From NCBI GenBank assembly GCA_013697635.1, contig JACCWM010000165.1:1-36873 (forward strand): DNA of 36,873 bases. The letters are read 5' to 3'. Both the position numbers and the translations under genes were made by a program. This DNA is from Lujinxingiaceae bacterium. GTDB lineage: Bacteria; Myxococcota_A; Bradymonadia; Bradymonadales; Bradymonadaceae. The notes below the pieces were generated by a model that did no database searches, was not told the origin of the DNA, and worked only from the letters and a program-made list of their open reading frames with translations. Below are positions 13,174 through 36,561 of this stretch, one piece after another (position 1 is the stretch's first letter; every line of letters starts with the position of its first letter).

Positions 13174-16100
13174 CTAACCGCTGATGCACACGCCGATCAC
13201 GTCTTCACCACTTCGTGCGCAGGTGCCGCTGCAGCAATCGCCGCTGACCTGACACCAAACACCGAGCGGGCGGCAAGGCTGCTTGCAGGTGCCGCCGCTG
13301 CCACAGTAGCCGGTGCAACAATCGGCGCTGTCGTCGCAGCTGTCGCCGTTGATCGCGCACTCCGGACAGCCGTTGTCGACAATACCGTTACAGTCGTTGT
13401 CGGTGCCATCACAAACCTCCGGCTGCGGACCGTTCGGGCATTCTATGCAATCATTGTCGATGACGCCATCACAGTCGTCGTCTTCGCCGTTGCACAGCTC
13501 ATCGCGCGCCACGCAGGTGTCAAAGCAGCCGTTGTCGACCACGCCGTCGCAGTCGTTGTCGGCCCGATCACACACCTCCGCGTGTGGCACACATGCAGGC
13601 TCGGGCGGGCAGCCCTCGTCGATCACGGCGTTGCAGTTGTTGTCGCTGCCATCGCAGACCTCGCGCGTCGGCGTACAGGTGGGAGCCGGCGAGCAGCCCT
13701 CGTCGATCACACCGTCACAGTTGTTATCAGCCCCGTCGCAGACCTCGCGCTGTGGCACGCATTGATTGACAGGCGCGCAGCCGTTGTCGACCACACCGTC
13801 GCAGTCGTTGTCGGTGCCATCGCACACCTCCGGGCCGTGCACACAGGCTTGCACCGGCGTGCAGCCATTGTCGATCACGCCGTCGCAGTCGTTGTCGGTG
13901 CCGTCGCAGACCTCCGGCAGGCACTGCGCGCAGGTGCGACCATCGGGGAAGGTGCGGTTGTCCTTGACGCCGTCGCAGTCGTTGTCGGTGTAGTCGCACA
14001 CCTCCTCGCCGCTGGGCACGCACTGCGAGGCGCATCCCAGGCTGACCTTGACCGAGGTCGTCGCGGGCGGCGCGGCCTGAAGATTGGCGCAGGCCTGGCC
14101 GTGGATCGCCACGAAGTTCGTGGCCGGGTCGTAGCTAAAGCCGGAGTTCGTGTCGTTGGGCACGGAGGTGAGCACCGGGTTTCCGGGCCCGCTGGAATCC
14201 TCGATCTGCACCCAGATCTTGCTCGCATCGGGCGGCGTCGTCTCCAGCGCATACGTGCAGCCGATGTAGGACGACGTGATCGAGCTGATCGCCGCTGATA
14301 CCTCCTCGGCGTTTGTCGCCCAGTAGTAGCGGTGAGGGGCGTTGGGGTTGTCCGTGCAGCCCGCCTCAGCGAGCAACTCGAGGCTGTCGCGGTTGGCGCC
14401 GGGCAGACCGATCCAGTGTACGGGAATGCCGCGCGCGCAGATGGCGGCGACCTTGACGATCGCCTGGTTCAACTGATCGACGCCGTTGCAGCCCGTGCAC
14501 ATCTTGGCCGCGTCGCTGATCACGATGTAGACGCGCTGGCGATGCGCGGCGTGTACGTCGTCGCCGTCGGTGAGCCATTTTGTCTTGAGGCCCTGGGCTG
14601 GCTCGTCGTGCAGATCGGTCACGACAGCGAGCATCGGCGTCGACGCCCCGGCAGACAGTGTCGAATAGGAGGCCTTGATCTGGGCCGGTGTGTACTCACC
14701 AACCTCGAGGCGAAGCTCGGCGCCGTTGGAGGAGTTCGTTTTCGGAAAGACCGAGAGCGCAAAGCGCACCTGGTCGGCGTGGCGATCGGCGATCGTGTTC
14801 AGACCGGCGGTCGCAAAATCCCAGCGCTTCATCGAACCCGTCGCATCATGCTCCATGTTTGCAAGCGAGGAGGACTTGTCCAGGCTGATGTGAATGGCTG
14901 GCTTGACCTGGGTAAAGCCGGCTCCCTGCGTGTGACAGATCGCGCCGGTTGGCTCCAAGCTACAGGCGTCGCCTGTGCCGTCGCCGTTGCTGTCGAGCTG
15001 GTCGTAGTTGGCGACGATCGGGCAATTGTCGCAAGCGTCGCCGATGCCGTCACCGTCGCTGTCGAGCTGGTCGGGGTTGGGAACATTCGGGCAGTTGTCA
15101 AAGATGTCCGCCACGCCGTCGCCATCGGAGTCGCGCCTTGGATCGTAGGGCAGCGGCGAGGTACATGCGTCGCCTGTGCCGTTGCCGCTGCTGTCCTCTT
15201 GCAGCCAGTTGGCCACGAACGGGCAGTTGTCGCAGGCATCGCCCACACCGTCGTTGTCAAAGTCTTCCTGGCCGGGGTTGTAGACAAACGGACAGTTGTC
15301 CAGGTAGTCGGGCACGCCGTCGCCGTCGCTGTCGTCGGTAAAGCGACCATCGGCGCAGGCGTCGCCTTTGCCATCGCCATTGGAGTCGGCTTGATTCCAG
15401 TTCGCCACGAACGGACAGTTGTCGCAGGCGTCGCCAATGCCGTCGCCGTCAGAGTCCTTTTGATCCGTGTTGTAGACCGTCGGGCAGTTGTCGACGTTGT
15501 TGGGGATGCCGTCGCCGTCGATGTCGCCTTCCGGGTCGTTGAGCCCGCTGCAGGCGTCGCCCACACCGTCACCGTTGCTGTCGAGCTGGTCGTAGTTGGC
15601 GATGAACGGGCAGTTGTCGCAGGCATCGCCCACACCGTCGCCGTCAGAGTCCCTTTGATCAGGGTTGTAGACCGTCGGGCAGTTGTCCACGTTGTTGGGG
15701 ATGCCGTCGCCGTCGACGTCGCCTTCCGGGTCGTTGAGGCCGCTGCAGGCGTCGCCTGTGCCGTCTGCGTTGCTGTCGAGCTGGTTAAAGTTGGCGATGA
15801 ACGGGCAGTTGTCGCAGGCATCGCCCACACCGTCACCGTCGCTGTCGAGCTGGTCGGGGTTGTAGACCGTCGGGCAGTTGTCCAGGTAGTTGGCCACCCC
15901 GTCACCATCATCATCGCGGGTCCAGCGCCCATCGGCGCACGCGTCGCCTGTGCCGTCACCCGTGCTGTCCTCCTGGCCGCTGTTGGCGACGTAGGGGCAG
16001 TTGTCGCAGGCGTCACCGATGCCGTCGCCGTCAGAATCTTCCTGGTTCGGGTTGGGAACACCCGGACAATTGTCGAGGTAATTGGGCACCCCGTCACCAT

Positions 16101-16740
16101 CGCAATCGCCATAAGGATCGAGCAAGACCGCCTCATCGCAGTCCTCAATCGGCTCACAGGCGTCGCCCACACCGTCGCCGCTGCTGTCGAGCTGGTCGTA
16201 ATTGGCCACGAACGGGCAGTTGTCGCAGGCGTCACCGACGCCGTCGCCGTCAGCGTCCTCCTGGCCGGGATTGAAAGCGGAAGGACAATTGTCCCACTGA
16301 TCCGGGATCCCGTCGCCATCGCTGTCCAACCACTCTCGACACGTCTCGGTGGGCGGCTCATCGCCAAACGACCAGTTGGCCGGGCACGGCGCACAGGCAT
16401 CGCCATAGCCATCGCCGTTGCTGTCGACCTGGCCGGCGTTGGCGATGCACGGGCAGTTATCCTGGTAGTTGAGCACGCCGTCGCCGTCAAAATCACCCAG
16501 CGGATCGAGGCTCTGGCCGCCGCAATGAATCGGTCCGCCGCCCCAGACATCGTAGAGATAGGGGCCGCCTGCATCGACAAGTGGCCCGCTACCGGTGAGA
16601 AGGACGTCCTCCTGCACGTCGACGCTGGCATCGACGGCGTCGCCCGAACTCGCAACGCGCTTGCTGCCGGTATCATCCGAGCAAGCCATCAATAGGCCAA
16701 TCACTAGAATAACGACATAACAGTTCCAACGAGCATGCAT
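13174..16740 (-). CDS. Large lipoprotein: thrombospondin-3 repeats, vWA-like domain, MopE-type repeats
   Basis: A 1188-aa protein. The ATG at 16740 has AAGGA 6 nt upstream and gives a signal ending in the lipobox LMAC, so it should be a lipid-anchored surface protein. Residues ~78-598 are many [15 protein letters not shown]-type thrombospondin-3 repeats, whose Asp-rich loops bind calcium. Residues ~600-900 resemble a von Willebrand A domain with a DxSxS MIDAS motif (DKSSS) near residue 617. Residues ~903-1120 contain eight [18 protein letters not shown]-like units (MopE-type putative metal-binding motif). The last ~65 residues form a Cys-rich Dickkopf-like module. A calcium-rigidified stalk presenting an adhesive domain is inferred. 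It is a single cistron. Confidence 0.92.
14960..16500 (-). repeat. DNA-level tandem array encoding TSP3 repeats
   Basis: Degenerate repeats built on the codons for D-x-D-G-D-G-x-x-D and D-N-C-P recur through this interval. On the plus strand they appear as gtcgcaggc, ccgtcgccgtc and gggcagttgtc blocks. Long near-identical segments recur (for example around 15410-15560 and 15600-15750), indicating recent duplication or gene conversion. Confidence 0.8.
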
Positions 16741-16928
16741 AGCGCATCCTTGGGCAAGGGAAATCCACACGACAGGTGAGTAGGTTGCCCAGCAAGCATA
16801 AACGCCCCCGATGCGTTTCAAGCTCAAGTCGCTGAAATCTCTATATAATGAGGTTCTATGCGCTCGATCGTGCCCTGGTGTCTTCGGTAGAATGCACAGA
16901 TTTCACCGATTGGCCCGGCAGATGATGA

Positions 16929-23519: not shown

Positions 23520-23561
23520 CCGGGCCACCCATACACGGCTACGCTCATTTTGGAGTTGCTC

Positions 23562-24551
23562 ATGTCTGCCCGCAATACCTTTGCTGCCACGCGCCGCTCG
23601 CACGCGATCCTCAATTGGCTTCAAGACGGTGAGCCAGTAACCATCGAGCGGGTCTGCGACACCTTTGGCATCAAGTACCCGCAGGCCCGCGAAGATCTCA
23701 AACTGCTCGAGGATCTTTACGGGCTGGCCACCCAACGCGACGGACGCACCAAGGTTTGGATCTGGCCCGGCGCGAGCCGCGCCGTGGAGACCGTCGCCAC
23801 AGCGGCCGCGCTCGAGCTTGGCGCCATCGCACTCGACATCTTCAAAGACACGCCTTACGGCGAGGAGATCACCCGCGTAAGCCAGGAGTGTCGTCGTCGC
23901 CTGGAGTCCACCCAAGATCAGCGCCTCGACCGCATCGCCAATGCCCTTCATCTGCGCCGCACATGGCTTCCGGTCAACGCCGAAGCCATGCTCGAGAGCG
24001 TCGAGGACATCCTCGACGCCATTTACCTCGATCAGGCGCTGACCATCAAATACGAGCGCGCCGATGGTGAGCTCGGCAGCTACGCTTTAGATCCCCGACG
24101 CCTGATCTGGTATGGCGGTCGACTCTGGCTGCAGGCGTTCGACCAGCAGCAGATCAAACTCTTCGACCTCGCCGGTATCCAGACAATCAAGCGCATCGCC
24201 AAGCCCGCTCTGGTCGCTGGCAAGGACGGCGCCACCGTTGACCGGCCAGCTCTGCCATTACCGGCCGAATACTTCGCCGACGCCTTTGGAATCTTTGCCC
24301 AAAACTTCGACGCCTGCGCCGTGCATCTGCACGTTGGCGGCAGCTGGGCGACCTATTTGCGCCGCTACCACGTGCACCCGTCCCAGGTTAACGAAGAAAA
24401 AGACGGCAAGCTCCACGTCCACTTCACGCTCGGCCTGTGCCCGGAGTTCAAGTCCTTCCTCATGGGCATGATCCCTGACGTCAAGGTCGTGGCCCCACGC
24501 TCGCTCAAGACCGAGCTGCGCGCCCGCGCCGCCCAAGGCGCCGCGATCTAG
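23562..24551 (+). CDS. WYL-domain transcriptional regulator
   Basis: A 329-aa protein. Residues ~10-65 form a winged helix-turn-helix (RRSHAILNWLQDGEPVTIER, FGIKYPQAREDLKLLEDLYG). Residues ~140-210 form the WYL domain, where TIKYERADGELGSYALDPRR and the IWYGGRLWLQAFD segment carry the conserved Tyr/Arg positions for ligand or nucleic-acid sensing. A WCX-type C-terminal extension (~240-329) follows. Such proteins respond to single-stranded DNA or other small ligands and regulate defence, DNA repair or metabolism. The ATG at 23562 has TTGGAG upstream; a TTG at 23550 is less likely. No defence genes are adjacent, so its targets are unknown. Confidence 0.85.
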   Translation: MSARNTFAATRRSHAILNWLQDGEPVTIERVCDTFGIKYPQAREDLKLLEDLYGLATQRDGRTKVWIWPGASRAVETVATAAALELGAIALDIFKDTPYGEEITRVSQECRRRLESTQDQRLDRIANALHLRRTWLPVNAEAMLESVEDILDAIYLDQALTIKYERADGELGSYALDPRRLIWYGGRLWLQAFDQQQIKLFDLAGIQTIKRIAKPALVAGKDGATVDRPALPLPAEYFADAFGIFAQNFDACAVHLHVGGSWATYLRRYHVHPSQVNEEKDGKLHVHFTLGLCPEFKSFLMGMIPDVKVVAPRSLKTELRARAAQGAAI

Positions 24552-24576: not shown

Positions 24577-26715
24577 CTACTGCGCTACGATCGTGCGCGC
24601 CACGCGCAATTGCCAGGTCACCAGATCCTGGCGCGCATGGCGAAGCTGATATTGGTGTAGCCTGGTCCCGTCAAACGTCCAGACGAACAGATCCGCGCCG
24701 GCATCGCCAGCCGCGATGCGCGGTCCGCTGACCTCGGTCGACTTCAAACGCTGGTTGACGTCGTTGGCCAGAGCATCGCTGTTGACCACACGCCAGCCTG
24801 GTCGGTGCGCAGTATCGAGCAAATCGACGACGGCCTGGGCGTTGGCGTTTTCAAGCTTGCCCCAGCGATATCCCACGTAGCGGGCAAAGTGTTTTCGACT
24901 GGCGAGCAGCAAGAACTCACCGGTTGAGCGCACATAGGCCATGGCAACCTCGCCCTGCGCGTTGACGCCGGAGCCGTTGGGGCCACGTCCCGACGCTGGC
25001 ACCCACTGCTGGTCGATGGCAAACAGCACCGTCCTGGAGTCTTTCGCGACGGGGCGAATCGAGGCGGCAACCTCGGAGAGGTCGGCCTCGTTCATCGAGA
25101 AGCGATAAGCGATCCACAGCTCGGCGAGCTTCATGCAAAGCGCCGACCCCTCGAGGCCGGGCGTCGGGTCAATGTAATCGACCACCGTCGAGAGCATGGC
25201 GCTGTCGGCAACGGCTCGTTCGGCCTGACCGATGATGCTGTCCAGATTCACGTCGTCAATGTCCTCGGCGGCGATCCACTCGGCAGCGAGCTCGAAGGGG
25301 CGAAGCGTCGCGCCGCGGCCCAGCCGGATAAACGAGGCGTTGGGCGGATGCTCGTAGGCCCAGACGCCGCCAAAGCTTTGCACCACGCACTCCCCAAGAA
25401 AACGTCCCAACGCCAGGACGCGGTCATTGTCGACCTTGACCTCCTCGAGGTAGAGCGCGTTGAGCGGCGAGAGCGTCTCGAGCAGCCCGTCACGAAAGTT
25501 GAGCTCCAGGCGCGCGATGCTCGACGGTCGAAAAGGCACCGCACTCGCCTTGTTCGATAAGGTCGCCGCGAGCAGATTGTGCATGCAGCGCTCAAGCACG
25601 ATCTCGACGATGATGTCACCCCCGGTGAGCCGAAAGTCCGCCGCCGTGGAGCCGCCCGATCCGCCCAAAATGTTGTGCTTGTCAAAGCCTACGGCCGGGA
25701 TCCGATCGATCGGATCGTCGGACTCCGAAGGCCATTGCGGCGGCACCGCCGGCGGCACCATGTTCTGGATGCCCTCGTTGAGCCGGCGCTCCTCCTGCAT
25801 GATCTCGACCATGTTCTTCTGGCCGGCCTCCGGGCGAGACTCCATCGGCCGAGCCGCCTTCCCGGGCAGCCGTGAGACCAGGTTGGCCCTGTTGCTCGTC
25901 GGTTGTCCTTCGCCCGTTTGCCGGGTCTCCTGCTTGCGCTGTTGAGTGGGGGCCGCACTCGGCACCCGCGCTTGTTGATGCTGTGCAGGAGCCGGGTTCG
26001 CCACGCGCGCTTGCTGCTGCTGGCGTTGGGGCTGGGCGGCGGGCGCTTGACGCTGCCGCTGAGCGCCAGCCTGCGCTTGGGGCTGGGACTGCGTGACGGC
26101 CGCGCCCGCGCTGCGTGCCGGGCGCGGCAGCGACTGGCCGGAGTGCATTGAGCGGCGCGCTAGCGCGAAAAAACCCGCCATCTCTTGCGTCTTGTTCGGT
26201 ATGGTGTAGTCGAGCCGATTGACGAAGCGCATGCCATCGGTCTCGGGGATCCGCCCGGCGATGATCGCGTCGACCATGTCCGCCACCACACACTGCACGT
26301 GCGCAAAGCCGCGGCCGTCGTCGGCGGCGTTCAAAGCGCGCACCATCGTCTCGGTACCATCTTGCCATCGGCCCTGGCGAATCTGCTGCTCGCCCAGTAA
26401 TGCCTGATAAAACGACACGTTGGGCTCCATGCTCACCGCGCGCGTCGCATGGCGCTCACCTTCGGCCCGGTGACCCAGGCGTCCGAGAATCTCGCCCATC
26501 AATGCTTCGGCGCCGGCCGTGCTGCCATGATCCAGGGCACGCTGCGCCGTGGCTTGAGCCTCGCTCAGCCGACCCGTCATCATCTGAGCCTCGGCCAGGC
26601 CGGCTAAAGCGGCCGCCGAGCTGGGGTTTGCCCGAACCTGCGTATCGAAGACCTCTACAGCTCGGCCGTAGTTTCCCGAGCGAAGCGCCTCCAATCCTTG
26701 TTCCACGGATGCCAT
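24577..26715 (-). CDS. TPR protein with Gln/Ala/Pro-rich linker and unknown C-terminal domain
   Basis: A 712-aa protein with no signal peptide. Residues ~1-130 are three to four tetratricopeptide repeats (GNYGRAVEVFDTQVRANPSS and successors), which bind partner proteins. Residues ~200-290 are a low-complexity linker rich in Gln, Ala, Pro and Arg. Residues ~315-712 form a large globular region I do not recognise, including DIIVEIVLERCMHNLLAATL, ALGRFLGECVVQSFGGVWAY and a stretch reminiscent of immunity/SMI-type or DUF-type enzyme-inhibitor folds. GGGAGG lies 5 nt before the ATG at 26715, which is preferred over an upstream in-frame start. It converges with the WYL gene 25 bp away. Confidence 0.8.
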   Translation of the reverse strand: MASVEQGLEALRSGNYGRAVEVFDTQVRANPSSAAALAGLAEAQMMTGRLSEAQATAQRALDHGSTAGAEALMGEILGRLGHRAEGERHATRAVSMEPNVSFYQALLGEQQIRQGRWQDGTETMVRALNAADDGRGFAHVQCVVADMVDAIIAGRIPETDGMRFVNRLDYTIPNKTQEMAGFFALARRSMHSGQSLPRPARSAGAAVTQSQPQAQAGAQRQRQAPAAQPQRQQQQARVANPAPAQHQQARVPSAAPTQQRKQETRQTGEGQPTSNRANLVSRLPGKAARPMESRPEAGQKNMVEIMQEERRLNEGIQNMVPPAVPPQWPSESDDPIDRIPAVGFDKHNILGGSGGSTAADFRLTGGDIIVEIVLERCMHNLLAATLSNKASAVPFRPSSIARLELNFRDGLLETLSPLNALYLEEVKVDNDRVLALGRFLGECVVQSFGGVWAYEHPPNASFIRLGRGATLRPFELAAEWIAAEDIDDVNLDSIIGQAERAVADSAMLSTVVDYIDPTPGLEGSALCMKLAELWIAYRFSMNEADLSEVAASIRPVAKDSRTVLFAIDQQWVPASGRGPNGSGVNAQGEVAMAYVRSTGEFLLLASRKHFARYVGYRWGKLENANAQAVVDLLDTAHRPGWRVVNSDALANDVNQRLKSTEVSGPRIAAGDAGADLFVWTFDGTRLHQYQLRHARQDLVTWQLRVARTIVAQ

Positions 26716-26817
26716 GCTACCTCCCTTTTGCGGCGTGCGCCCTGGTTGGCGCCCACTGCAGATCATTCATGAGGCCCACGTCCCAGGGCCCAAATTGTGA
26801 CGACGAACAAGCTCAAA

Positions 26818-26854: not shown

Positions 26855-28486
26855 TTAGTGTGCGGCCAGACGAATCTCGACGACCGTCGGTGAGCCGGGC
26901 GCGCTTTCGATGCCGATCTCGCCGCCATGTTGCTCGATGATTTGACGACTGAGATACAATCCCAGGCCCATGCTGCTCGACAGCGCAGGCTTGCCGGAGC
27001 CGTGGTAGAAGCGGTCGAAGACGCGCGCCAGCGTTTGAGCGTCCATGCCGTCGCCTTCGTCGATCACACAAATCACGGCACTGGAGCCATGTCTGGAAAG
27101 GCGAACAATGATTTTTCCGCCTCGGCGGCCGTGTTTGACAGCGTTGTCAATCACGTTGGTCACCACCTGTTCGAGGCGATCCGGATCGACGTCGGCCACG
27201 ATCGCCGCCTCAGGCAGCTCGAGCGCAAAGGCGTTGGCCGTATGCGACGCATGCCAGGGGTCGAGCACATGGTAGCAAAGCTTGGCCAGATCCACCGGAC
27301 GACGATGCAAGAGCAGTTGGCCCGTTTCGATGCGCGACATATCGAGCATGCCGTCGATCAACCGGCGCAAGCGAAGCACTTGCTGCTCAGCGCGGAGCAG
27401 CACATCGAGATCCACCTGCTCGCCGCGCTCACATTGGCGGCGCGCCAGATGCAAGAATCCTGTCAATGGCGTCAGCGGACTGCGCAGCTCGTGGCTGGCA
27501 ACGGCCAAAAACTCGTCCTTGCGCTGGTCATATTGGCTGCGCGCGGTGATGTCTTGAGCCGTTGCCACAAAGGAATGCGCACGCCCGTCTTCGCCAGCGA
27601 CCGGAATCACATTGAGCAGGATGTGGCGGCGAAAGCCACCAAAGTTCAACACGTACTCTTCGTCGGTACATCCCTCGCCGGTGCGTATGGCCCGCAGTAA
27701 CGGCCACTCGCTTCTGGGAACAACCTGTTGCTGGCCATCGAGCGTTTCAAAGGAATGCTCGTCGTCACCGACGCGATCCCACTGCGAGCGACCCACCAGC
27801 GCCTTGGCCTCTTCGTTGATCAAGAGCACTTCCTCGTGACGATTGAACAACATCACAGCCTGCGGAATGTTGTCGACAACCGTTCGAAATTGCGCGCGCT
27901 CGAGCGCGAACTCCTCGTGAACACGCACATGATCGAGCACAACCGAGATGCTTTGGCCCAACGCCTCGAGAAAGTCCGCGTCACGCACGTCGCCCTCGAA
28001 GCCAATGCCCGATTCCGTCGCCGCAGCACTCAAACGGCTCAAATGAAGCGTGCCCAGCGCTCGGCCCCGAAGCCCCAGCGCAAGCACGGCTTCGACTTGA
28101 CCCTGCGCCTCAGTCCAACGCCATCGATCGGACGTCGCGTGTTTTTCACTGAGCAGCAACTCCATCAGGAATGGGTCTAGCTCCTGTCGCCTGGAAGCAT
28201 CCAACACCACGCCTCGCCACGCTACCGGGCGCAGCGCGCGCTCCTCGAGCAGCGCCAGGACCGTGACCTCGAGCTCGAGGGCCTCATCCAATACCTCGAT
28301 GACGCGTCCCGCCAAGGCCTCGAGCGTCGTCACCCGGCGCCCAAGCTGCCCGATCGTCACAAGCAGCTGCAGGCGCTGCAACGCATCGCACTTGCTTCGA
28401 TCGCGAAACCGGCACAGCTGCCGCGGGTCGTCAACCACTTCGGGTTCCTCTAGGATTTTGCAGCTTTCACTCACTGAAGGCTCCAT
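26855..28486 (-). CDS. Sensor histidine kinase with GAF, PAS, HisKA and HATPase domains
   Basis: A 543-aa soluble kinase with no membrane segment, so it senses a cytoplasmic signal. A GAF-like region spans residues ~40-190, with a PAS domain at ~195-310 (TVVDNIPQAVMLFNRHEEV). The phosphoacceptor His lies in AVASHELRSPLTPL near residue 335. The ATPase domain shows the N-box NVIDNAVKHGRRGGK, the G1 box DEGDGMD and the G2 box GLGLYLSRQIIEQHGGE. No response regulator is adjacent, so it is an orphan. The start at 28486 is preferred over a TTG at 28546, because a TATACT box at 28532-28527 puts transcription start beyond the TTG. No Shine-Dalgarno is clear. Confidence 0.9.
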   Translation of the reverse strand: MEPSVSESCKILEEPEVVDDPRQLCRFRDRSKCDALQRLQLLVTIGQLGRRVTTLEALAGRVIEVLDEALELEVTVLALLEERALRPVAWRGVVLDASRRQELDPFLMELLLSEKHATSDRWRWTEAQGQVEAVLALGLRGRALGTLHLSRLSAAATESGIGFEGDVRDADFLEALGQSISVVLDHVRVHEEFALERAQFRTVVDNIPQAVMLFNRHEEVLLINEEAKALVGRSQWDRVGDDEHSFETLDGQQQVVPRSEWPLLRAIRTGEGCTDEEYVLNFGGFRRHILLNVIPVAGEDGRAHSFVATAQDITARSQYDQRKDEFLAVASHELRSPLTPLTGFLHLARRQCERGEQVDLDVLLRAEQQVLRLRRLIDGMLDMSRIETGQLLLHRRPVDLAKLCYHVLDPWHASHTANAFALELPEAAIVADVDPDRLEQVVTNVIDNAVKHGRRGGKIIVRLSRHGSSAVICVIDEGDGMDAQTLARVFDRFYHGSGKPALSSSMGLGLYLSRQIIEQHGGEIGIESAPGSPTVVEIRLAAH

Positions 28487-28522
28487 AAGCCAGGGCGGAA
28501 TGACGACGCGCGTTCCAATAAC

Positions 28523-28534
28523 CCAGTATACTGG
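28523..28534. promoter_or_regulatory. Perfect 12-bp palindrome over the -10 region of the histidine kinase gene
   Basis: CCAGTATACTGG is self-complementary and contains TATACT, a good minus-strand -10 box, 41 nt upstream of the start at 28486. A -35 is weak (TTAGAC). The overlap suggests repression, perhaps by autoregulation, but no binding factor is known. Confidence 0.4.
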
Positions 28535-28567
28535 TAAAGATGACAATGTCTAAGCTCAGCCAATAAA

Positions 28568-28629: not shown

Positions 28630-31080
28630 TCAGTTCGCCGGCTTGCCCCACAGCGTGGAAGGCAAGGTCTCTTCGCTGGTCACTGTTGCTTGCGTCAAGG
28701 TCTCGCTAAGTATCGAGTCCTCGGTGGAGGCGAGCGCGACTTCATCACCGCGTCGATTGCCCCAGGTCGTTCCACCCAAATCGAGCTCAGTGCCTGCCGC
28801 AGCGAACAATCCAAAGCGGTCGTTCTTGCGGCAATCGCTTGATGTAAACCTTCCCGTCGAGTTCAAAAACTGAGCTCCGTCACCGGCGGAGACGATCGTG
28901 TTGCCAAGGTTCAAGCTGGCATCGAGCGTCAGCATGAAGTCCGATTGATTGACCTGGATCTCCTGATTGGAGGCAAACAGGCCGATGGCGGTGTTTCGCA
29001 CGAAGGTTGAATGCTCGATCGACAACACGCCCGGTTGGGTATCGTTTTGAAACCAGGCGCCGCCGGCGCGGTTCAACATGATCACACTGTCATTGATCGT
29101 CGTGTAGCCCTTGAGCCTGTGGCCGACAATTCCAGCGCCATGGTTCTCGAGTATCGCTGTTTGCGACAAATGCACCACATCGGCAGACAGAAAGTAGATC
29201 CCGTGCGCCGGTTTGGAGACATCAATGCTGTTCGCCACCATCGAGAAATCGGGCGAGCGCTGGGTCCCTGAGATGGTCGCGTCATCGATGTAGAGATTGA
29301 CGCCGCGTGAATCGACGCCGGCGCTGAAGTTATTGAGGAACTCGGTGCCACCGGTCGCGGCCAGGGTGTTCCAAGTACTCAAATCGGACATCGCCGGACG
29401 GTCACCCGAGGCGATCGGGAAGAAGTGGTCGCCGGGAAACTGATAGTCGGTGTTTACGCCCGCAAAATGGTCGCCCGGAAAGAAGTGATCGCCCGGAAAG
29501 AAGTGGTCACCTGGAAAGAAGTGGTCGCCCGGGAAGAAGTGGTCGCCCGGAAAGAAGTGGTCGCCCGGAAAGCGCAAATCGCCAAAATCCGGCATGGCAG
29601 GCAGGCCCTTGTTGACGACATAGAGCCGGTTGCTGAGATCCTGTGAGAGCATCCCCTCGTTTACCACCTGCTGGCTGACCACCGGCGTCGTTCTCAACAG
29701 GATGCCGGGCCAGTTTTCGCGAATCCTCGTCCCGTCGGAAAGCCAAATCCGTGAGCGCTGGCCATCGATGCCAGGGCCATGATTTTGCTCAATGGTTGTC
29801 TTGCCAAGTGCCCGCACGTAGCTGCTGACGCTGCGCAATCCCGGATTGTTGGCCGAGGCGGAATGCTGAGCAAATTTGCGGATGTGAACGTTGTTCAGGC
29901 CGAGCAGCGTGGCTTCAATGTCGATGCCGACACGCTCCGTCGTTTGTGCAGCGCCACCGTCGAACACGCTGTCCCCAATGACCAGGGTCGTCGCAAAGCC
30001 CGTCGACGGGTCCGTTGTCCTGGTCCCTGGCCTACTTATCAAACCACTTGCCACATTGTGGACATGAACGTGTCGTAGCGATGCATCGACACCGAGCAGC
30101 TCGATACCTGTGCGTGTTCCATCGATGGCAACCTTGCTCAGCGCCAGCGTACCGCCCTTCATTTGGATTGCGGCAAGCGGCGTCGGGGAGGTCGAAGTGA
30201 TCCGGCTGCTCACGATTGCTGCATTGCGCACGTTCGTCAGCCTGATCACCGGGGCGGCTACCCCGTCGGCAACGACACTGACTCCGGCCAACAAGAATAG
30301 GTCGGCGTCGTCAACAGCAATCGAAGCGTTGTTTTGCAAACGGATCGTCGCCGAGCTGCTGCACGGGCTCGTGATGAACAGTGGAGCCTTGGCCCGCAGA
30401 GCGCTGCGAAGTACGTGTTCTCCGGGCATCAGGGAGAGGACGGTGGGCTCGTCGATCACTCCATTGTTGCCGACCTTATCAAGGAAGATTGGATAGTCAG
30501 GATCGGCACCATCGGGGGTCATTCCGGGAGGCGGCGCAGGCCAGCTTTGCTGGCCATTTTGGGCAGACGTCGCATCCAAGTGGTGGTGAGGCTTGATGTA
30601 GATGACGCGCGCCTCGCCCAAGCCGCCGCTGGAGAGTTCATGGGGTAAGACAAAATGATAATTGAGCGGACAAGCCCCAACACCGGCAAATTGTCCTCCA
30701 ACCGAAACACCAACCGGTTGACTCCAGACAGAGCCATCACTGTCGGGACCACTGTCGGACGACGGCACATTCTCATCGAGTGAACCGCGGACGAATTCAC
30801 AGTACTGGGAATCGGCACTATAGATGCATATTCCAGACCTGGCCTGGGGCTCGAAGGAGGCGTCAGGTCCCACATCATGACCGGCATCGTTGTTGTTGTT
30901 GTTGTTGGAGTTGTTGGAGTTGTTGGTGTCCGGAGGATAGCCTTCAACTGGCTCCGGCCCTCCTCCTCGGCAACCACCCAGACCGATCAAAAAAATCACT
31001 AGAAGCAGCGGCGAGCGCATCAACCAACTCAACCGTCGAATCGACGGAGTCAATGGGCCTTTAGGGGAGCGGAAAAGCAT
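28630..31080 (-). CDS. Beta-helix lipoprotein with FPGDHF hexapeptide array (paralogue A)
   Basis: An 816-aa protein. The ATG at 31080 has GGAG 9 nt upstream and gives a signal ending at the lipobox GLGGC near residue 37. An Asn-rich linker (NNSNNSNNNNNN) and an Asp/Ser-rich region follow. From ~residue 200 there are repeated short beta-strand turns with Asn/Gly positions (RSRIWLSDGTRI, GLNNVHIRKF, AILENHGAGIVGH) typical of a right-handed parallel beta-helix. Near residues ~503-540 lies an array of six exact FPGDHF units, and a seventh copy follows at QFPGDHFFP. The downstream gene pattern and layout match paralogue B (31230-33515). It has its own terminator. Predicted surface-exposed; function unknown. 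Confidence 0.9.
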   Translation of the reverse strand: MLFRSPKGPLTPSIRRLSWLMRSPLLLVIFLIGLGGCRGGGPEPVEGYPPDTNNSNNSNNNNNNDAGHDVGPDASFEPQARSGICIYSADSQYCEFVRGSLDENVPSSDSGPDSDGSVWSQPVGVSVGGQFAGVGACPLNYHFVLPHELSSGGLGEARVIYIKPHHHLDATSAQNGQQSWPAPPPGMTPDGADPDYPIFLDKVGNNGVIDEPTVLSLMPGEHVLRSALRAKAPLFITSPCSSSATIRLQNNASIAVDDADLFLLAGVSVVADGVAAPVIRLTNVRNAAIVSSRITSTSPTPLAAIQMKGGTLALSKVAIDGTRTGIELLGVDASLRHVHVHNVASGLISRPGTRTTDPSTGFATTLVIGDSVFDGGAAQTTERVGIDIEATLLGLNNVHIRKFAQHSASANNPGLRSVSSYVRALGKTTIEQNHGPGIDGQRSRIWLSDGTRIRENWPGILLRTTPVVSQQVVNEGMLSQDLSNRLYVVNKGLPAMPDFGDLRFPGDHFFPGDHFFPGDHFFPGDHFFPGDHFFPGDHFAGVNTDYQFPGDHFFPIASGDRPAMSDLSTWNTLAATGGTEFLNNFSAGVDSRGVNLYIDDATISGTQRSPDFSMVANSIDVSKPAHGIYFLSADVVHLSQTAILENHGAGIVGHRLKGYTTINDSVIMLNRAGGAWFQNDTQPGVLSIEHSTFVRNTAIGLFASNQEIQVNQSDFMLTLDASLNLGNTIVSAGDGAQFLNSTGRFTSSDCRKNDRFGLFAAAGTELDLGGTTWGNRRGDEVALASTEDSILSETLTQATVTSEETLPSTLWGKPAN
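29464..29571 (-). repeat. Six 18-bp tandem repeats encoding FPGDHF
   Basis: The plus strand shows six consecutive 18-bp units of the form gaagtggtcgcccggaaa with few substitutions. On the minus strand each encodes FPGDHF. The near-identity at DNA level indicates recent expansion by slippage or recombination. A further isolated copy is near 29430. Confidence 0.95.
30889..30932 (-). repeat. Trinucleotide tract encoding poly-Asn linker
   Basis: Six GTT units on the plus strand (30889-30906), then GGAGTTGTT units, encode NNNNNN and SNN repeats in the linker of the lipoprotein. Length change would vary the linker without a frameshift. Confidence 0.8.
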
Positions 31081-31229
31081 ATCTATGTACTCCAGATGAG
31101 AATTATCTGTTTCGCGTCGAATTTTCGAGCTTAGTAGAATCGATGAGCCATTGCAAAAACGCCCGCGCTGCTCAAATAAACCTCGCAATTGCAATCGCTT
31201 AGGCTTGAGGCGGCCGGGCTATCAGGCAA

Positions 31230-33515
31230 TCAAAGTCCGGGTTCTCCCCACATCGTCTCGGGCAGAAGCTCACCGGAGTAGAGTCTGGCATTGGGCGCGG
31301 TGCCGCTTAACGTCGTCGTGGCCAGGCCCGCTTCGGCGTTGCCATCCCAGGTCGAGTGAGCGTCCCATGATTGGACCTCCTCGCCACTCAATAGAAGGCC
31401 GAAACGCTCGTTTTTCCAACATGCCGTTCGGGTCATGTTGAGCTCCACGTGGTTCAACTGCATTCCGTCACCGCTGGTGACCGACTCGCCATTGCGCAGT
31501 TTGAGTTCGCTGCGTTTGGTCAGAAGAAAGTCCGAGTCATCGACATCGAGGATTTGGTTGGAGGCAAACATGCCTACCCCATTGTTGCGGACAAAGGTCG
31601 ACGAGCTCACGCTCAGCTGGCCGCTCGCTGAGGCGTTTTGGAACCAGGCACCGCCGGCAGCGTTGGACATCACGATGCTGTCGGCGATCGTGTTGTAGCT
31701 CTTCAAGTGATGACCGACGATGCCGGCACCCTTGTTCTCAAGCACCAAAGTGTTATCGAGATGAACAAAATCCGCTTTCTGAAAATAGATGCCATGTGCC
31801 GGTTTGATGACGTCTGTGGTGCTGGCATTGATCGCAGCGGAAATCTGAGCCGTGGTTCCCGCTACCGTGACATCGGTGAGGTAGAGATTTACGCTTCGCG
31901 CATCCACACCAACCTTGGCATTGTTGAGTATCTCGGTGCCATCGGTCAAAGCAAGCGTCGCCCACTGGCTGACGTTGGTCATCCCGGAGATGGTCGTGAC
32001 ATCGAGGCTGGGTAGAAAATGATCACCGGGGAAGAAGTGGTCGCCCGGAAAGAAGTGGTCGCCCGGAAAGAAATGGTCGCCCGGAAACTTGTGCGTGCCA
32101 AAATCGGGCTGCGTCGGCAGGCTTTGCCCGACGACGTAGAGAGGATTGTTCCCAAATGGAGCCAGCTCTCCCTCCGTAAACAAAAGCTCGCCATGGGTGC
32201 GAACATCCGTTACGAAGATTCCCGGTTGGTTGCCTTGCACGAGCGTGTTACCCGAAAGCCAGATACGCGAGCGTTCGCCCCGAACACCCGCACCACTGCT
32301 GCCCTCGATCCTGGTTCCACCATGAGCACGCACGTAACTCTCGACCGCATAGATTCCCGTGCTCTGCTCCGAAGCCGGACTCGACACGTGGTTGCGAATG
32401 TGAACGTTTCTCAATCCGAGCAGCGCGCCGTCGACGTGAATGCCTGTTCGGGGGACAGCGCGCGCAGAACCACCATCGATCAAACTGTCACTGACGAGTA
32501 GCGTCGAATAATAACCGGCTGCACTCCTACGATTGTCAGGATCGGGTTTAACCACGAGACCGGCCAGGTTGACGTTTTCAACGTGCAGATTATGAATTGA
32601 AGCATTAACGCCACGCAGCACGATGCCACTGCCTGTTCCAGAAATCGCTACGCGGCTTATTCCCAAATTACCCGAGCCTTCTGCGGTGATTGCCGGGGTC
32701 TCGAACATCGTCGTCAGTCCCATGATCCGGCTGGCGACGATGATGCTATGCTCGACCTCCTTGAGTTCAATCAACGACTTGTCCACATGCTGTGCTGTTA
32801 CCGTCACGCCCGCCATGACGAAGAGCGAGGTCTGGGTGACGGAGATGTTGGCGTTGTTTTGAAGTCGAATGATCGCGCTGCTGAAGCAGGGACTGACAAT
32901 GAGCAGAGGAGCCGTCGCCCGGATCGAGGAGCGCATCACATGCTCTCCGGGCATCAGGGAGAGGATGGTCGGCGTTGTGAATGTTGAGTTCAACGCGCTC
33001 AAGTAGATCGGATAGTCGGGGTCTGTGCCGTCATGAAGTAGATTGTCCGGCGGCAGCGGCCACTCTCGATCACCAAGCACCGATGAGTTCGAGCCCGTTT
33101 CACGAGACGGCTTGACGTAAACGACCTTTGGACTTCCACCAAATGAGGACGGCCACTCGTCGCCAGGCAGGAAATGATACTGACCCAGCCGGCAGCCTTG
33201 AACGCCGGCAAAGGCTCCTCCTACCGATTGGCCACTAGGCTGACTTAGCTCCTCGGTTCCTCCCCCATCACTCTCACTTGGTCCGCAATTCGCCAGACCC
33301 CCCGTATCGTAAGTGCAAAAAGCCGATTCATCGGCGTCGTACCAGGGAATTTGTATTCCTGTATCGGCGCTGCTTGGATTCGTGTCCGAGCCACTATCAA
33401 AATTTAAGTCGGCACGAACGCCGTCTTCTGACGAGCAATTTGCCAGTAAGATCGTGCTCATGAGGATCAAGCAACGCAGAAGGGGTTGACGCAACGCCAA
33501 GGGCCAAGAGTTCAT
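31230..33515 (-). CDS. Beta-helix lipoprotein with FPGDHF hexapeptide array (paralogue B)
   Basis: A 761-aa protein. The start at 33515 gives MNSWPLALRQPLLRCL, a hydrophobic segment and Cys after LLAN, an acceptable though not ideal lipobox. A start at 33572 is also in frame; neither has a strong ribosome site. The core matches paralogue A in order: an SVGGAFAGVQGC block, DPDYPIYLSAL, PTILSLMPGEHV, then beta-helix turns (GLRNVHIRNHV, ERSRIWLSGNTL, LVLENKGAGIVGHHL). Four FPGDHF units sit at the same point, after PDFG. It diverges from A along most of its length, so the duplication is old while the arrays look young. It is expected to be on the surface, with no enzyme motif recognised. Confidence 0.9.
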   Translation of the reverse strand: MNSWPLALRQPLLRCLILMSTILLANCSSEDGVRADLNFDSGSDTNPSSADTGIQIPWYDADESAFCTYDTGGLANCGPSESDGGGTEELSQPSGQSVGGAFAGVQGCRLGQYHFLPGDEWPSSFGGSPKVVYVKPSRETGSNSSVLGDREWPLPPDNLLHDGTDPDYPIYLSALNSTFTTPTILSLMPGEHVMRSSIRATAPLLIVSPCFSSAIIRLQNNANISVTQTSLFVMAGVTVTAQHVDKSLIELKEVEHSIIVASRIMGLTTMFETPAITAEGSGNLGISRVAISGTGSGIVLRGVNASIHNLHVENVNLAGLVVKPDPDNRRSAAGYYSTLLVSDSLIDGGSARAVPRTGIHVDGALLGLRNVHIRNHVSSPASEQSTGIYAVESYVRAHGGTRIEGSSGAGVRGERSRIWLSGNTLVQGNQPGIFVTDVRTHGELLFTEGELAPFGNNPLYVVGQSLPTQPDFGTHKFPGDHFFPGDHFFPGDHFFPGDHFLPSLDVTTISGMTNVSQWATLALTDGTEILNNAKVGVDARSVNLYLTDVTVAGTTAQISAAINASTTDVIKPAHGIYFQKADFVHLDNTLVLENKGAGIVGHHLKSYNTIADSIVMSNAAGGAWFQNASASGQLSVSSSTFVRNNGVGMFASNQILDVDDSDFLLTKRSELKLRNGESVTSGDGMQLNHVELNMTRTACWKNERFGLLLSGEEVQSWDAHSTWDGNAEAGLATTTLSGTAPNARLYSGELLPETMWGEPGL
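32016..32087 (-). repeat. Four 18-bp tandem repeats encoding FPGDHF
   Basis: Four contiguous 18-bp units encode FPGDHF on the minus strand. The DNA units are very close to those at 29464-29571, despite divergence of the flanking paralogue sequence. The copy number differs (four here, six there). Confidence 0.95.
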
Positions 33516-33596
33516 GATTTTTTTCACAAGTGGAGGCACGAATAATGGAGGCTCAGCGAGTGCCAAACCCATTCAACGATTCGGGGCTGATGCAGG

Positions 33597-33665: not shown

Positions 33666-36341
33666 TCAAGCGAGGTCGAGCGCGAGGCGAAACCCGTAGT
33701 GAGCGTGACGAAATATCGTCGGACTGGTGAGATACCAGTCCAGCCGGCACATCAACGCAAACGAGTTATAGGAGCCGCCCTTGAGGATTCTAACGTCCTG
33801 GGCCTCGGCATCCATGGTCGAGGTCCACTCGCAAATATTGCCCGCCATGTCCATGACTCCATATGGCGAGCGATCAATGGGAAATGAGCCAACGGGCGCC
33901 GGAATCGCCTTGCCACGACGGCTCTCCCTCATCTTGCAAAATGACGGGTCGAAGTGGTTGCCCCAAGGATAGAGGCGGCCATCAACACCCCGAGCGGCCT
34001 TTTCCCACTCCTCGGCCGTCGGTAAGCGGTAGGTGCGTGCGTCGCGCTCACTTCGCCAACGCGCAAAGGCCTGGGCATCGTCAAAGCTGACCATGCAAAT
34101 CGGCCAGTCAGGATCCCAGGCATCACCCTCAGCATCCTCTTCGGGAAGAATAAACTGGCCGCTCGGCGTCAACGGGAAATAGGAGTCGGCGTCGTCTCGA
34201 AGACGAGGCGCATGTTGCAGTGCCTGCTGGGGGGCATATTGGGCAATCGCGTTCAAGAACTCGATGTATTGGCCGCACGTTACGGGAAACTGCATGATCG
34301 CAAAATCAGGCAAGAAGGTCTGACGAGCGCCACCGAGCTGCACATTGCCGCTCAGGAAACTGCCAAGCGGAACGAGGACAAAATCCTCCGGGCAGTGTTC
34401 GCGAGAGTAAAGATGGAACTGGAGACGCATCTGCTCCAAACGGCCAAGCAATAGGGGAGCCCGCAGCGGAACGTGCCCCGGGCTCATGACCTCGAGCAAA
34501 TAACTGCCATGGGTTATCCCACCGCGACGGATCGGCGTCGTGCCAAGATCATCGACCGGCCGCTCCACCAGACGACGCTTCTCCTCCTGGAAGCGCAGCA
34601 GTCGTACGTTTGCCTTGTCCAGAAACGTCGCGATCTCCAAATGCGCCAGACCTTCGAGCAGGGTGTCGTATCGACCGTCGTTGAATTGACGAACCAACCC
34701 CTCGAAATAAGCAGCCATGGCGCGCTCGCCACGCTCTTCTGATTCCTGAAAGCGCTCCCAATACAGATCCGCGAGGGCCCCGCGCGCCTCGGGTACAGGC
34801 AGATAGCCAAGCGCCTGGCCATAGTGGCGCACGGACTCGCCGAAGTGACGTTCGATCTCAATGTGCAACTCGTCGGCCTGTTGTTCCAGTTGCCAGAGAT
34901 TCTCTTTTTCCTCAGAGGGCGACCATGACGGAACGCGTTGGCGCTCCTGGCGCAAGGCGTCGAGCAAGCCCGCATAGCGATGGCGCACGCTCTGGTACTG
35001 GTTGCGCGCCTGCTTCGCCAGGCCAATGGCAAGGTCAGCCTGTTCTTGTTGCCGCTCGCGATCCTTGATGCCTTCGAGAAACAAATTGAGATCGTCGGCC
35101 AGGGCCTGCGTCGAAGCAAAGCGTTTCGCTGGATCTTTGGCCAGCGCTTTGAGGCAAATATCCTCGAGTACCCCGGGTACATGGCGTGTTGGCGCCCGCT
35201 TCGATGGGGGTTCTGGTTGCTCGTCGATCACCTTGAAGAGCAAGGGCAGAACGTGCGGCGCAGAAAATACCGGGGTCCGAGTCAGGATCTCGTACAAGAC
35301 CGCTCCCAATGCGTAGACGTCCGTGCGCTCATCAACCTGATCGTTGAGTCCACGCGCCTGCTCGGGCGCCATATACTGCGGCGTGCCGATCACGGCTCCC
35401 ATCTGCGTGTTGCGCGAGGCCCGAATCGAGCTTGTAGCGAGCTTCTCGTTGACGATCTTTGCCACACCCCAATCGATGACAAAGACCTCGCCGTAGGAGC
35501 CCACAAGGATGTTCTCTGGTTTCAGATCACGATGGATGACGCCCTGATCGTGCGCGTATTGAATCGCCAAACAGACTTGACGAAGAATCGATACGAGCTG
35601 GATCAAGGAGTAGCCCATCTCACCGCTTGCCAGATCTTGGTTCAAGATCTGTTCGAAACTACGCTCCCGAACCACACGCATCGTGTAAAAGGGCTCACCA
35701 TTGCTCAGCGCCCCTAAATCGTAGACGGGAATGATACTGGGATGCTCGAGCAATCCCGTGACCTGAGCTTCAAGCGCAAGTCTATCGCCAGCCTGAGGTT
35801 GGTTCTGAGCCTCGGGCAAGAGCGTCTTGAAAGCAATCTCACGATTAAGGATGCGATCATGGGCCCGAAGAACTTGACCCATGCCACCGCGGCCGAGCTC
35901 ATCGACAAAATCGTAGCGCTGCTCGCGGGTCAGGCTCAGATTAGTTTCTAGCGCCTGGTTGACGTCGGGCTTCGGGCCGGTCGTGGTTTGTACGTAGAGC
36001 TCGGCCTCGCTATCCCACGTTTGCGCAAGACCCTTGGGCCGCTCCTCATCTTTGTTGCGCGGTGAGCGCTCGTGAATCTTTGTGGAATCCGTGAGTTCTT
36101 CGAGAACAATGGTATCGCCGTGATCGAGCTCGGCTTCAAAGTCGATCGCTGAAAGCGTGGCCAGTCGCTCCTGGAGCTCGGCCATGTCATGGGCAACGAC
36201 AATGCCCTGCGAGACCAGGTAGTTAGCCAGGGTTTCGCCGGATTTGGATGCATGCTCAACGCACCGCAAAAGCACCGGCAACTTTACGAGCCCCCGCGCA
36301 ACGGCGAATTGGCCGAGCTGGAAATCCTGTTCAGTGATCAT
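33666..36341 (-). CDS. Ser/Thr protein kinase fused to a formylglycine-generating-enzyme-like domain
   Basis: An 891-aa protein. Residues ~1-65 form a small N-terminal helical domain. A Hanks-type kinase domain (~143-430) follows, with GRGGMG, IAFKTLL (lysine near 172), VIHRDLKPENI, DWG in place of DFG, and YMAPEQARG. Residues ~430-640 are charged helices, possibly TPR-like. The C-terminal ~240 residues are an FGE/SUMF1 domain (FLPDFAIMQFPVTCGQYIEF, RLPTAEEWEKAARG, LYPWGNHFD, MAGNICEWTS, GGSY, YGFRLAL). In the GGSYNSFALMC segment only one of the two active-site cysteines of true FGE appears present. The start is the ATG at 36341; no membrane segment is visible. It may be a binding or non-canonical enzyme domain steered by the kinase. 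Confidence 0.9.
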   Translation of the reverse strand: MITEQDFQLGQFAVARGLVKLPVLLRCVEHASKSGETLANYLVSQGIVVAHDMAELQERLATLSAIDFEAELDHGDTIVLEELTDSTKIHERSPRNKDEERPKGLAQTWDSEAELYVQTTTGPKPDVNQALETNLSLTREQRYDFVDELGRGGMGQVLRAHDRILNREIAFKTLLPEAQNQPQAGDRLALEAQVTGLLEHPSIIPVYDLGALSNGEPFYTMRVVRERSFEQILNQDLASGEMGYSLIQLVSILRQVCLAIQYAHDQGVIHRDLKPENILVGSYGEVFVIDWGVAKIVNEKLATSSIRASRNTQMGAVIGTPQYMAPEQARGLNDQVDERTDVYALGAVLYEILTRTPVFSAPHVLPLLFKVIDEQPEPPSKRAPTRHVPGVLEDICLKALAKDPAKRFASTQALADDLNLFLEGIKDRERQQEQADLAIGLAKQARNQYQSVRHRYAGLLDALRQERQRVPSWSPSEEKENLWQLEQQADELHIEIERHFGESVRHYGQALGYLPVPEARGALADLYWERFQESEERGERAMAAYFEGLVRQFNDGRYDTLLEGLAHLEIATFLDKANVRLLRFQEEKRRLVERPVDDLGTTPIRRGGITHGSYLLEVMSPGHVPLRAPLLLGRLEQMRLQFHLYSREHCPEDFVLVPLGSFLSGNVQLGGARQTFLPDFAIMQFPVTCGQYIEFLNAIAQYAPQQALQHAPRLRDDADSYFPLTPSGQFILPEEDAEGDAWDPDWPICMVSFDDAQAFARWRSERDARTYRLPTAEEWEKAARGVDGRLYPWGNHFDPSFCKMRESRRGKAIPAPVGSFPIDRSPYGVMDMAGNICEWTSTMDAEAQDVRILKGGSYNSFALMCRLDWYLTSPTIFRHAHYGFRLALDLA

Positions 36342-36561
36342 GGACAAATAGGATGTGAACGACGAGCAAAGGCCATTGCCACGTCCGTAGCTGGAGTCGG
36401 ACCTTCGCTAGCCTATCAGAGCGCATTGGCTTCAAAAAGAACAATTGAGGGCCAAGCACCATGCCGTGGGAATGTCTGGCATCCTAACCGGTTCTACTCG
36501 CTGCCGGCTCGCGCAGCATGAAGACAAAAGCGTCAGTCGGCAACGAGATCGCAATTAGAAC

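Follow-up and report, generated by a model that had tools for sequence, protein, structure and literature searches.

Tandem lineage-private hexapeptides in exported proteins of bacteria and archaea as a possible multivalent docking module

Two neighboring lipoprotein genes, located in a 36,873-nucleotide stretch of bacterial DNA (hereafter the window), encode tandem copies of the hexapeptide FPGDHF that exemplify an apparently undescribed hexapeptide module of exported proteins in numerous phyla of both bacteria and archaea. We tentatively favor the explanation that such an array is a polyvalent short-linear-motif module carried on an exported protein, with each copy docking to one cognate partner in the envelope or on the surface. 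The source genome belongs to the same family as Lujinxingia, within the Bradymonadales, which are predatory bacteria (PMC7460792).

Two paralogous lipoproteins with tandem FPGDHF units

Direct reading confirms that lipoprotein 1 carries six FPGDHF units in tandem plus one isolated copy, that lipoprotein 2 carries four, and that both arrays stand behind a PDFG motif, as the initial annotation had stated (Table 1). Shuffling the residues of lipoproteins 1 and 2 yields at most one and two exact hexapeptides in tandem, respectively, compared to the six and four observed, and Tandem Repeats Finder reports 18-bp arrays at 29468-29572 (90% matches) and 32032-32087 (97%). No further FPGDHF locus was found in the rest of the 6.2-Mb genome when two tandem units were sought with up to three mismatches.

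The description of the genes as tandem beta-helix lipoprotein paralogues is likewise borne out. The proteins are 44% identical, and the Pfam model PF13229 (Beta_helix) scores 26.3 bits for P0001 and 46.9 bits for P0002, relative to a gathering cut-off of 25.9. Judged by eye from a hydrophobic signal followed by a lipobox-type cysteine (IGLGGC and ILLANC in lipoproteins 1 and 2), both are bacterial lipoproteins, and a lipobox is also present in relatives. The probable start of lipoprotein 1 is internal, upstream of MRSPLLLVIFLIGLGGC, and that of lipoprotein 2 is MNSWPLALRQ at 33515. A short Asn-rich run (NNSNNSNNNNNN; 30889-30929) lies right behind the lipobox of lipoprotein 1, and two relatives (G004 and G011) have comparable Asn runs at this place. 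Elsewhere in the window, a long gene (13174-16827) contains 84/168-bp and 195-bp tandem repeats (Tandem Repeats Finder, 13524-13914 and 14959-16102) that look like Asp-rich calcium-type repeats.

Table 1. Features of the window, neighbors of arrays in other loci, and units found at the same place in relatives of the window lipoproteins
Feature	Position	Strand	Remarks
WYL/WCX transcription regulator	23550..24551	+	divergent cluster end
TPR protein	24577..26766	-	conserved cluster member
PAS-domain histidine kinase	26855..28546	-	downstream, conserved in most family loci
Array lipoprotein 1	28630..31194	-	854 aa from TTG; beta-helix host
Seventh FPGDHF, lipoprotein 1	29422..29439	-	isolated, after AGVNTDYQ
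Six FPGDHF in tandem, lipoprotein 1	29464..29571	-	18 bp apiece
PDFG preceding array 1	29581..29592	-	
Array lipoprotein 2	31230..33572	-	780 aa; beta-helix host
Four FPGDHF in tandem, lipoprotein 2	32016..32087	-	
PDFG preceding array 2	32097..32108	-	
Ser/Thr protein kinase	33666..36347	-	C-terminal FGE-sulfatase (SUMF1-like) domain
Exported protein, KKLKKRVEQKVE-like start, OmpA/DUF4412 end	L079 2393-3532; L149 482-1855; L280 6969-8354; L275 9033-9857; L277 8063-8890; L278 10003-10851		
Unit FPGDMF			three species of genus g13, one of them Lujinxingia vulgaris (L148)
Unit FPGETF			G014, both paralogues
Unit FPGDTL			G011
Unit FPTDTF			G008
Unit FPGGTW			G019
Unit FPGDMN			G006
Unit FPGEML			G009
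Unit FPDDFF			G010
Unit IPGDEF			G012
Unit IPGDAF			G002
Unit LPGDMY			G005, both paralogues
Unit LPGDMF			G004
Units VPGDMF and VPGNMY			distant family f7

The same place, a different unit in each lineage

Homologues of the window lipoproteins occur in 18 of the 58 related genomes searched. Wherever a homologue is readable across the relevant region, a tandem hexapeptide array occupies the same spot, and the unit differs by lineage (Table 1). Some units are single and isolated, or are broken up by spacers. In another family of the class, a beta-helix-like protein (G026; L318, ORF from 7596) carries seven copies of FPGQDW, a unit which shows that the acidic residue can shift position.

The units were examined in a set of 66 arrays with 317 units, which are not all independent because the arrays of three Lujinxingia and four Gelidibacter species are related. 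Arrays range from 3 to 12 units, most commonly five (23 arrays) or four (19). Under a search pattern that biases the Pro, Gly and Asp positions and leaves position 5 free, position 2 is Pro in all 66 arrays, position 3 is Gly in 63, position 4 is Asp or Glu in 63, and 65 arrays have Phe, Tyr, Trp or Leu at position 6. At position 5, Met (25 arrays) and Thr (17) are commonest, followed by Ser (5), His, Ala and Gln (4 each), and others. Whatever residue occupies this free position, it agrees in 90% of unit pairs within arrays versus 20% of pairs between arrays.

These counts bear on the earlier suggestion that regularly spaced Asp and His residues could serve as metal ligands. A metal-binding array would be served by the acidic residue present at position 4 in nearly all arrays, but His is found at position 5 in only four, where Met and Thr are far commoner, and the acidic residue is absent from some arrays (FPGGTW) and shifted in others (FPGQDW). 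Asp/His coordination therefore fails as a general rule, and we regard metal binding as the most improbable of the explanations considered here.

Uniform protein and drifting DNA

The 18-bp units had been described as nearly identical in DNA, which was taken to indicate recent expansion or gene conversion. This near identity does not hold in an informative sense, since every difference between units of the window arrays is silent, with 12 silent and no replacement steps. Four-fold silent identity is 0.62 between the two window arrays, 0.50-0.60 within each of them and 0.41 in the flanks, values that fit common descent with some exchange. The two window genes may have undergone gene conversion, as the arrays are more alike than their flanks, but this is not required, and the unit may predate the duplication.

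The same pattern extends to all 66 arrays, for which the minimum number of steps is 354 silent versus 51 replacement. In one array of twelve LPGDQF units, the differences between pairs comprise 211 silent and no replacement changes. Within arrays, 50% of four-fold sites differ, and the difference is no smaller between adjacent units (0.49) than between distant ones (0.51). Because the protein is uniform while silent sites have diverged without an effect of adjacency, we conclude that uniformity is kept by selection on the protein, and not by recent duplication alone. The units are old, as read from their sequences.

Slippage is the usual explanation for tandem peptide repeats, and recent expansion of a neutral repeat, possibly as a phase-variable surface coat, would be in keeping with two observations. 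Gelidibacter orthologues (66-86% identity) carry five LPGDMF, a mixture of LPGDLF, LPGDMF and LPGDMY, three LPGDMF in an array shorter by exactly 36 bp, or five LPGDTF, and the five units of the second L. vulgaris array are identical as DNA. These cases indicate, at the sequence level, that unit turnover still occurs and that whole arrays change their unit from one related species to another, and the shift in copy number (three or five) among Gelidibacter orthologues lends some substance to the variable module that was initially proposed. However, each of three Lujinxingia species retains five plus five units, which speaks against simple recent expansion. The four-fold divergence of 0.50 without an adjacency effect, the near absence of replacement change, and the preservation of unit length and of the Pro-Gly-Asp core across phyla argue further against slippage, which we consider very unlikely to account for the arrays.

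Arrays across phyla and hosts

When 84,980 species were scanned for three hexapeptides in tandem that fit [aliphatic/Phe]-Pro-Gly-[Asp/Glu], and chance matches were removed, arrays of the FPGDHF class proved to be widespread. Among the matches listed, small exported hosts occur in Alphaproteobacteria (Sphingosinithalassobacter, Psychromarinibacter, Porphyrobacter, Roseovarius, Mesorhizobium, Phaeobacter and Maricaulis), Gammaproteobacteria (including Wenzhouxiangella), Gemmatimonadota and Myxococcales, and different exported hosts occur in Flavobacteria (Gelidibacter and others), Balneolaceae, a spirochaete and haloarchaea (Natrialba and Salinarchaeum). Many small hosts from the Proteobacteria can be aligned with each other as a single scaffold, and a strongly hydrophobic N-terminus is present in 30 of 32 hosts checked. 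A beta-helix host, which had been expected to be common to the arrays, is a property of the window proteins that does not hold generally, as most of the remaining hosts are small exported proteins with a different fold.

The reversed control pattern gave zero matches in all genomes sampled. Matches such as VPGEPP and LPGEAR were rejected as compositional or in the wrong frame, and the only two in viral contigs were low-complexity reading frames that matched by chance. Of 284 sampled genomes of the window's phylum, 12 have the strict three-unit pattern, all of them in the window's class. In the class of L079, where arrays are scarce, it is found in 1 of 385 sampled genomes, namely the centre genome itself.

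FPGDMF and FPGDHF reappear in distant taxa and in unrelated hosts, which implies that a unit is not strictly partner-specific. One unrelated exported protein (L173, 1016-1765) has five copies of the window's own FPGDHF at its extreme C-terminus. At another locus (L264, 6542-8172), two convergent small lipoproteins have LPGDMF arrays, and their neighbor is another kind of Ser/Thr kinase, which has AAA and TPR domains.

The impression that no such family had been described has held up, and it now extends to the absence of a domain model over the array. Neither Pfam nor NCBIfam has a model that covers the array in the hosts tested (ten and nine, respectively), and the only match to the array among PDB sequences is a chance TCR fragment. 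In the literature searched, we found no mention of FPGDHF, FPGDMF, LPGDTF, FPGDSF, IPGDTF, FPGDTW or LPGDMF, and no description of a hexapeptide or PGD tandem repeat.

Genomic neighborhood

Flanks could be read at 15 Bradymonadales loci, the window among them, and in each of these a homologue of the window's kinase-FGE protein directly adjoins the array lipoprotein. Identity is 42-55% for homologues of the family and 32-34% for those of family f7. Most of these loci further share the PAS histidine kinase, TPR protein and divergent WYL regulator, arranged as in the window. The conserved kinases next to the arrays are probably cytoplasmic, given that no export signal or membrane segment was seen by eye, which makes them unlikely as the direct partner of the array. 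The FGE/SUMF1-like domain of the window kinase, again by eye, seems to be without one Cys of the catalytic pair (GGSYNSFALMCRLD). The C-terminal domain of the kinase-FGE protein may be a non-catalytic binding domain.

Outside the Bradymonadales, the association of arrays with regulatory genes is suggestive. An ECF sigma factor and a Ser/Thr kinase are encoded near the arrays of L079, L081 and L113, and wider flanks add L111, which has an ECF gene nearby, and L108, which has a kinase, while two-component genes are found near the arrays of L093, L115, L120, L168 and L187. Overall, signaling neighbors are present in 9 of 37 array loci versus 3 of 72 decoy loci, a comparison in which the reference proteins were drawn from the positive loci. 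An exported neighbor of the KKLKKRVEQKVE type ends in an OmpA domain in L079, L149 and L142, and in DUF4412 in L115, L120 and L187. Such proteins adjoin arrays in three phyla and are a possible functional partner.

These signaling genes (kinase-FGE, PAS histidine kinase, ECF and two-component) lie close to many arrays, as would be expected if the host were a peptide-signal precursor, from which cleavage after the aromatic residue at position 6 releases a private hexapeptide that is sensed by the neighboring kinase or ECF-sigma system. Yeast alpha-factor is made from a multi-copy peptide precursor of this general kind, which resembles the arrays in its identical tandem peptides, export, silent divergence and variable copy number. 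Such a precursor would also be in keeping with export of the hosts, with copies that are identical yet silently diverged, with private units, and with a Phe, Tyr, Trp or Leu at position 6 in 65 of 66 arrays. Unlike alpha-factor, however, the arrays have neither spacers nor a dedicated cleavage motif. Their units abut directly, although a cut behind the aromatic position 6 is conceivable, and the arrays are embedded in large conserved beta-helices or compact folded scaffolds. Moreover, one unit can be common to distant taxa, the conserved neighboring kinases have no evident peptide sensor, and the excess of signaling neighbors over decoy loci is modest, with references taken from the positive set. 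We therefore think it improbable that the arrays are signal precursors.

Structural models

AlphaFold2 yields a confident beta-helix for window lipoprotein 2 (8-sequence alignment), in which the loop at residues 459-529, including the array at 496-519, has confidence values of 25-38 and no strands. For a small array protein (15-sequence alignment), the scaffold blocks reach 87-95, and the array remains at 42-66 with no regular strands. Given these shallow alignments, low confidence in the array could also reflect a segment that becomes ordered upon binding or assembly. Foldseek matches the window beta-helix model to beta-helix enzymes (E 1e-4, probability about 1.0), and a search of PDB sequences with the beta-helix host gives a borderline polygalacturonase match (E 0.007). 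The small scaffold has no Foldseek match with E <0.001. The right-handed beta-helix (PF13229), known from pectate lyase, alginate epimerase and tailspike folds, is thus the host fold of both window proteins, but the array is a loop insertion that the Pfam model does not include, and most further array hosts are not beta-helices.

The principal competitor to docking is self-association, wherein Pro-Gly-Asp turns and aromatic edges would stack in an ordered manner within or between molecules, as in a beta-solenoid or an elastin-like assembly, and identical residues in register would form ladders. A ladder would produce both uniformity within an array and concerted change between lineages, nearly all units have the Pro-Gly turn and the aromatic edge, and many arrays lie inside or next to beta-rich folds. 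AlphaFold2 tends to give regular solenoids for perfect repeats. Contrary to what stacking predicts, the array lacks strands and is of low confidence in both models, and single isolated units and spacer-interrupted units exist. We consider ordered stacking unlikely, although less so than the other alternatives to docking.

Known repeats with related features differ from the arrays in several respects. Left-handed beta-helix (LbetaH) hexapeptide repeats ([LIV]GxxxX) also have a six-residue period and a hydrophobic first residue, but the arrays have a Pro-Gly-Asp core, an aromatic position 6 and exactly identical units. No LbetaH hexapeptide-repeat model matches the ten and nine array hosts in Pfam and NCBIfam, and no strands of a three-sided LbetaH coil are predicted by AlphaFold2, with the array itself at low confidence. 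Elastin-like VPGXG and collagen-like GXY sequences are Pro-Gly tandem repeats that share tandem turns and acidic guest residues with the arrays. The arrays differ from these in their period of six, paired aromatics between turns, constant guest residue and limited number of units (3-12), and Gly occurs once per six residues, not at every third residue as in collagen.

Discussion

Low-confidence loops in the models, together with isolated and interrupted units, favor docking over ordered stacking. We hypothesize that a flexible loop would display a single hexapeptide, repeated 3 to 12 times and consisting of an aromatic or aliphatic residue, Pro, Gly, Asp or Glu, one lineage-specific residue, and an aromatic residue. 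Every copy would dock into the same type of pocket on the cognate partner, such that a copy that drifts would be selected against, and a change in the pocket would be followed by all copies through unit turnover and selection. A single pocket that reads all copies would explain both why the units of an array stay identical despite silent drift and why they change in concert between lineages. The steps that we infer are that the array is exposed, that it docks and that there is one partner.

A broader and more speculative proposal, which we hold to be doubtful, is that the hosts are a class of secreted signal or recognition proteins found across phyla, in which tandem lineage-private hexapeptides form a code that a cognate partner reads and that is tied to kinase or ECF-sigma loci. 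This would be a hitherto undescribed system of self or partner recognition.

Tandem units that do not change at the protein level as their DNA drifts indicate that something reads each copy alike. If this occurs by docking, a single partner pocket is predicted, and the motif provides a label by which dozens of hypothetical proteins can be searched. In the Bradymonadales, the array marks a conserved, kinase-linked surface locus.
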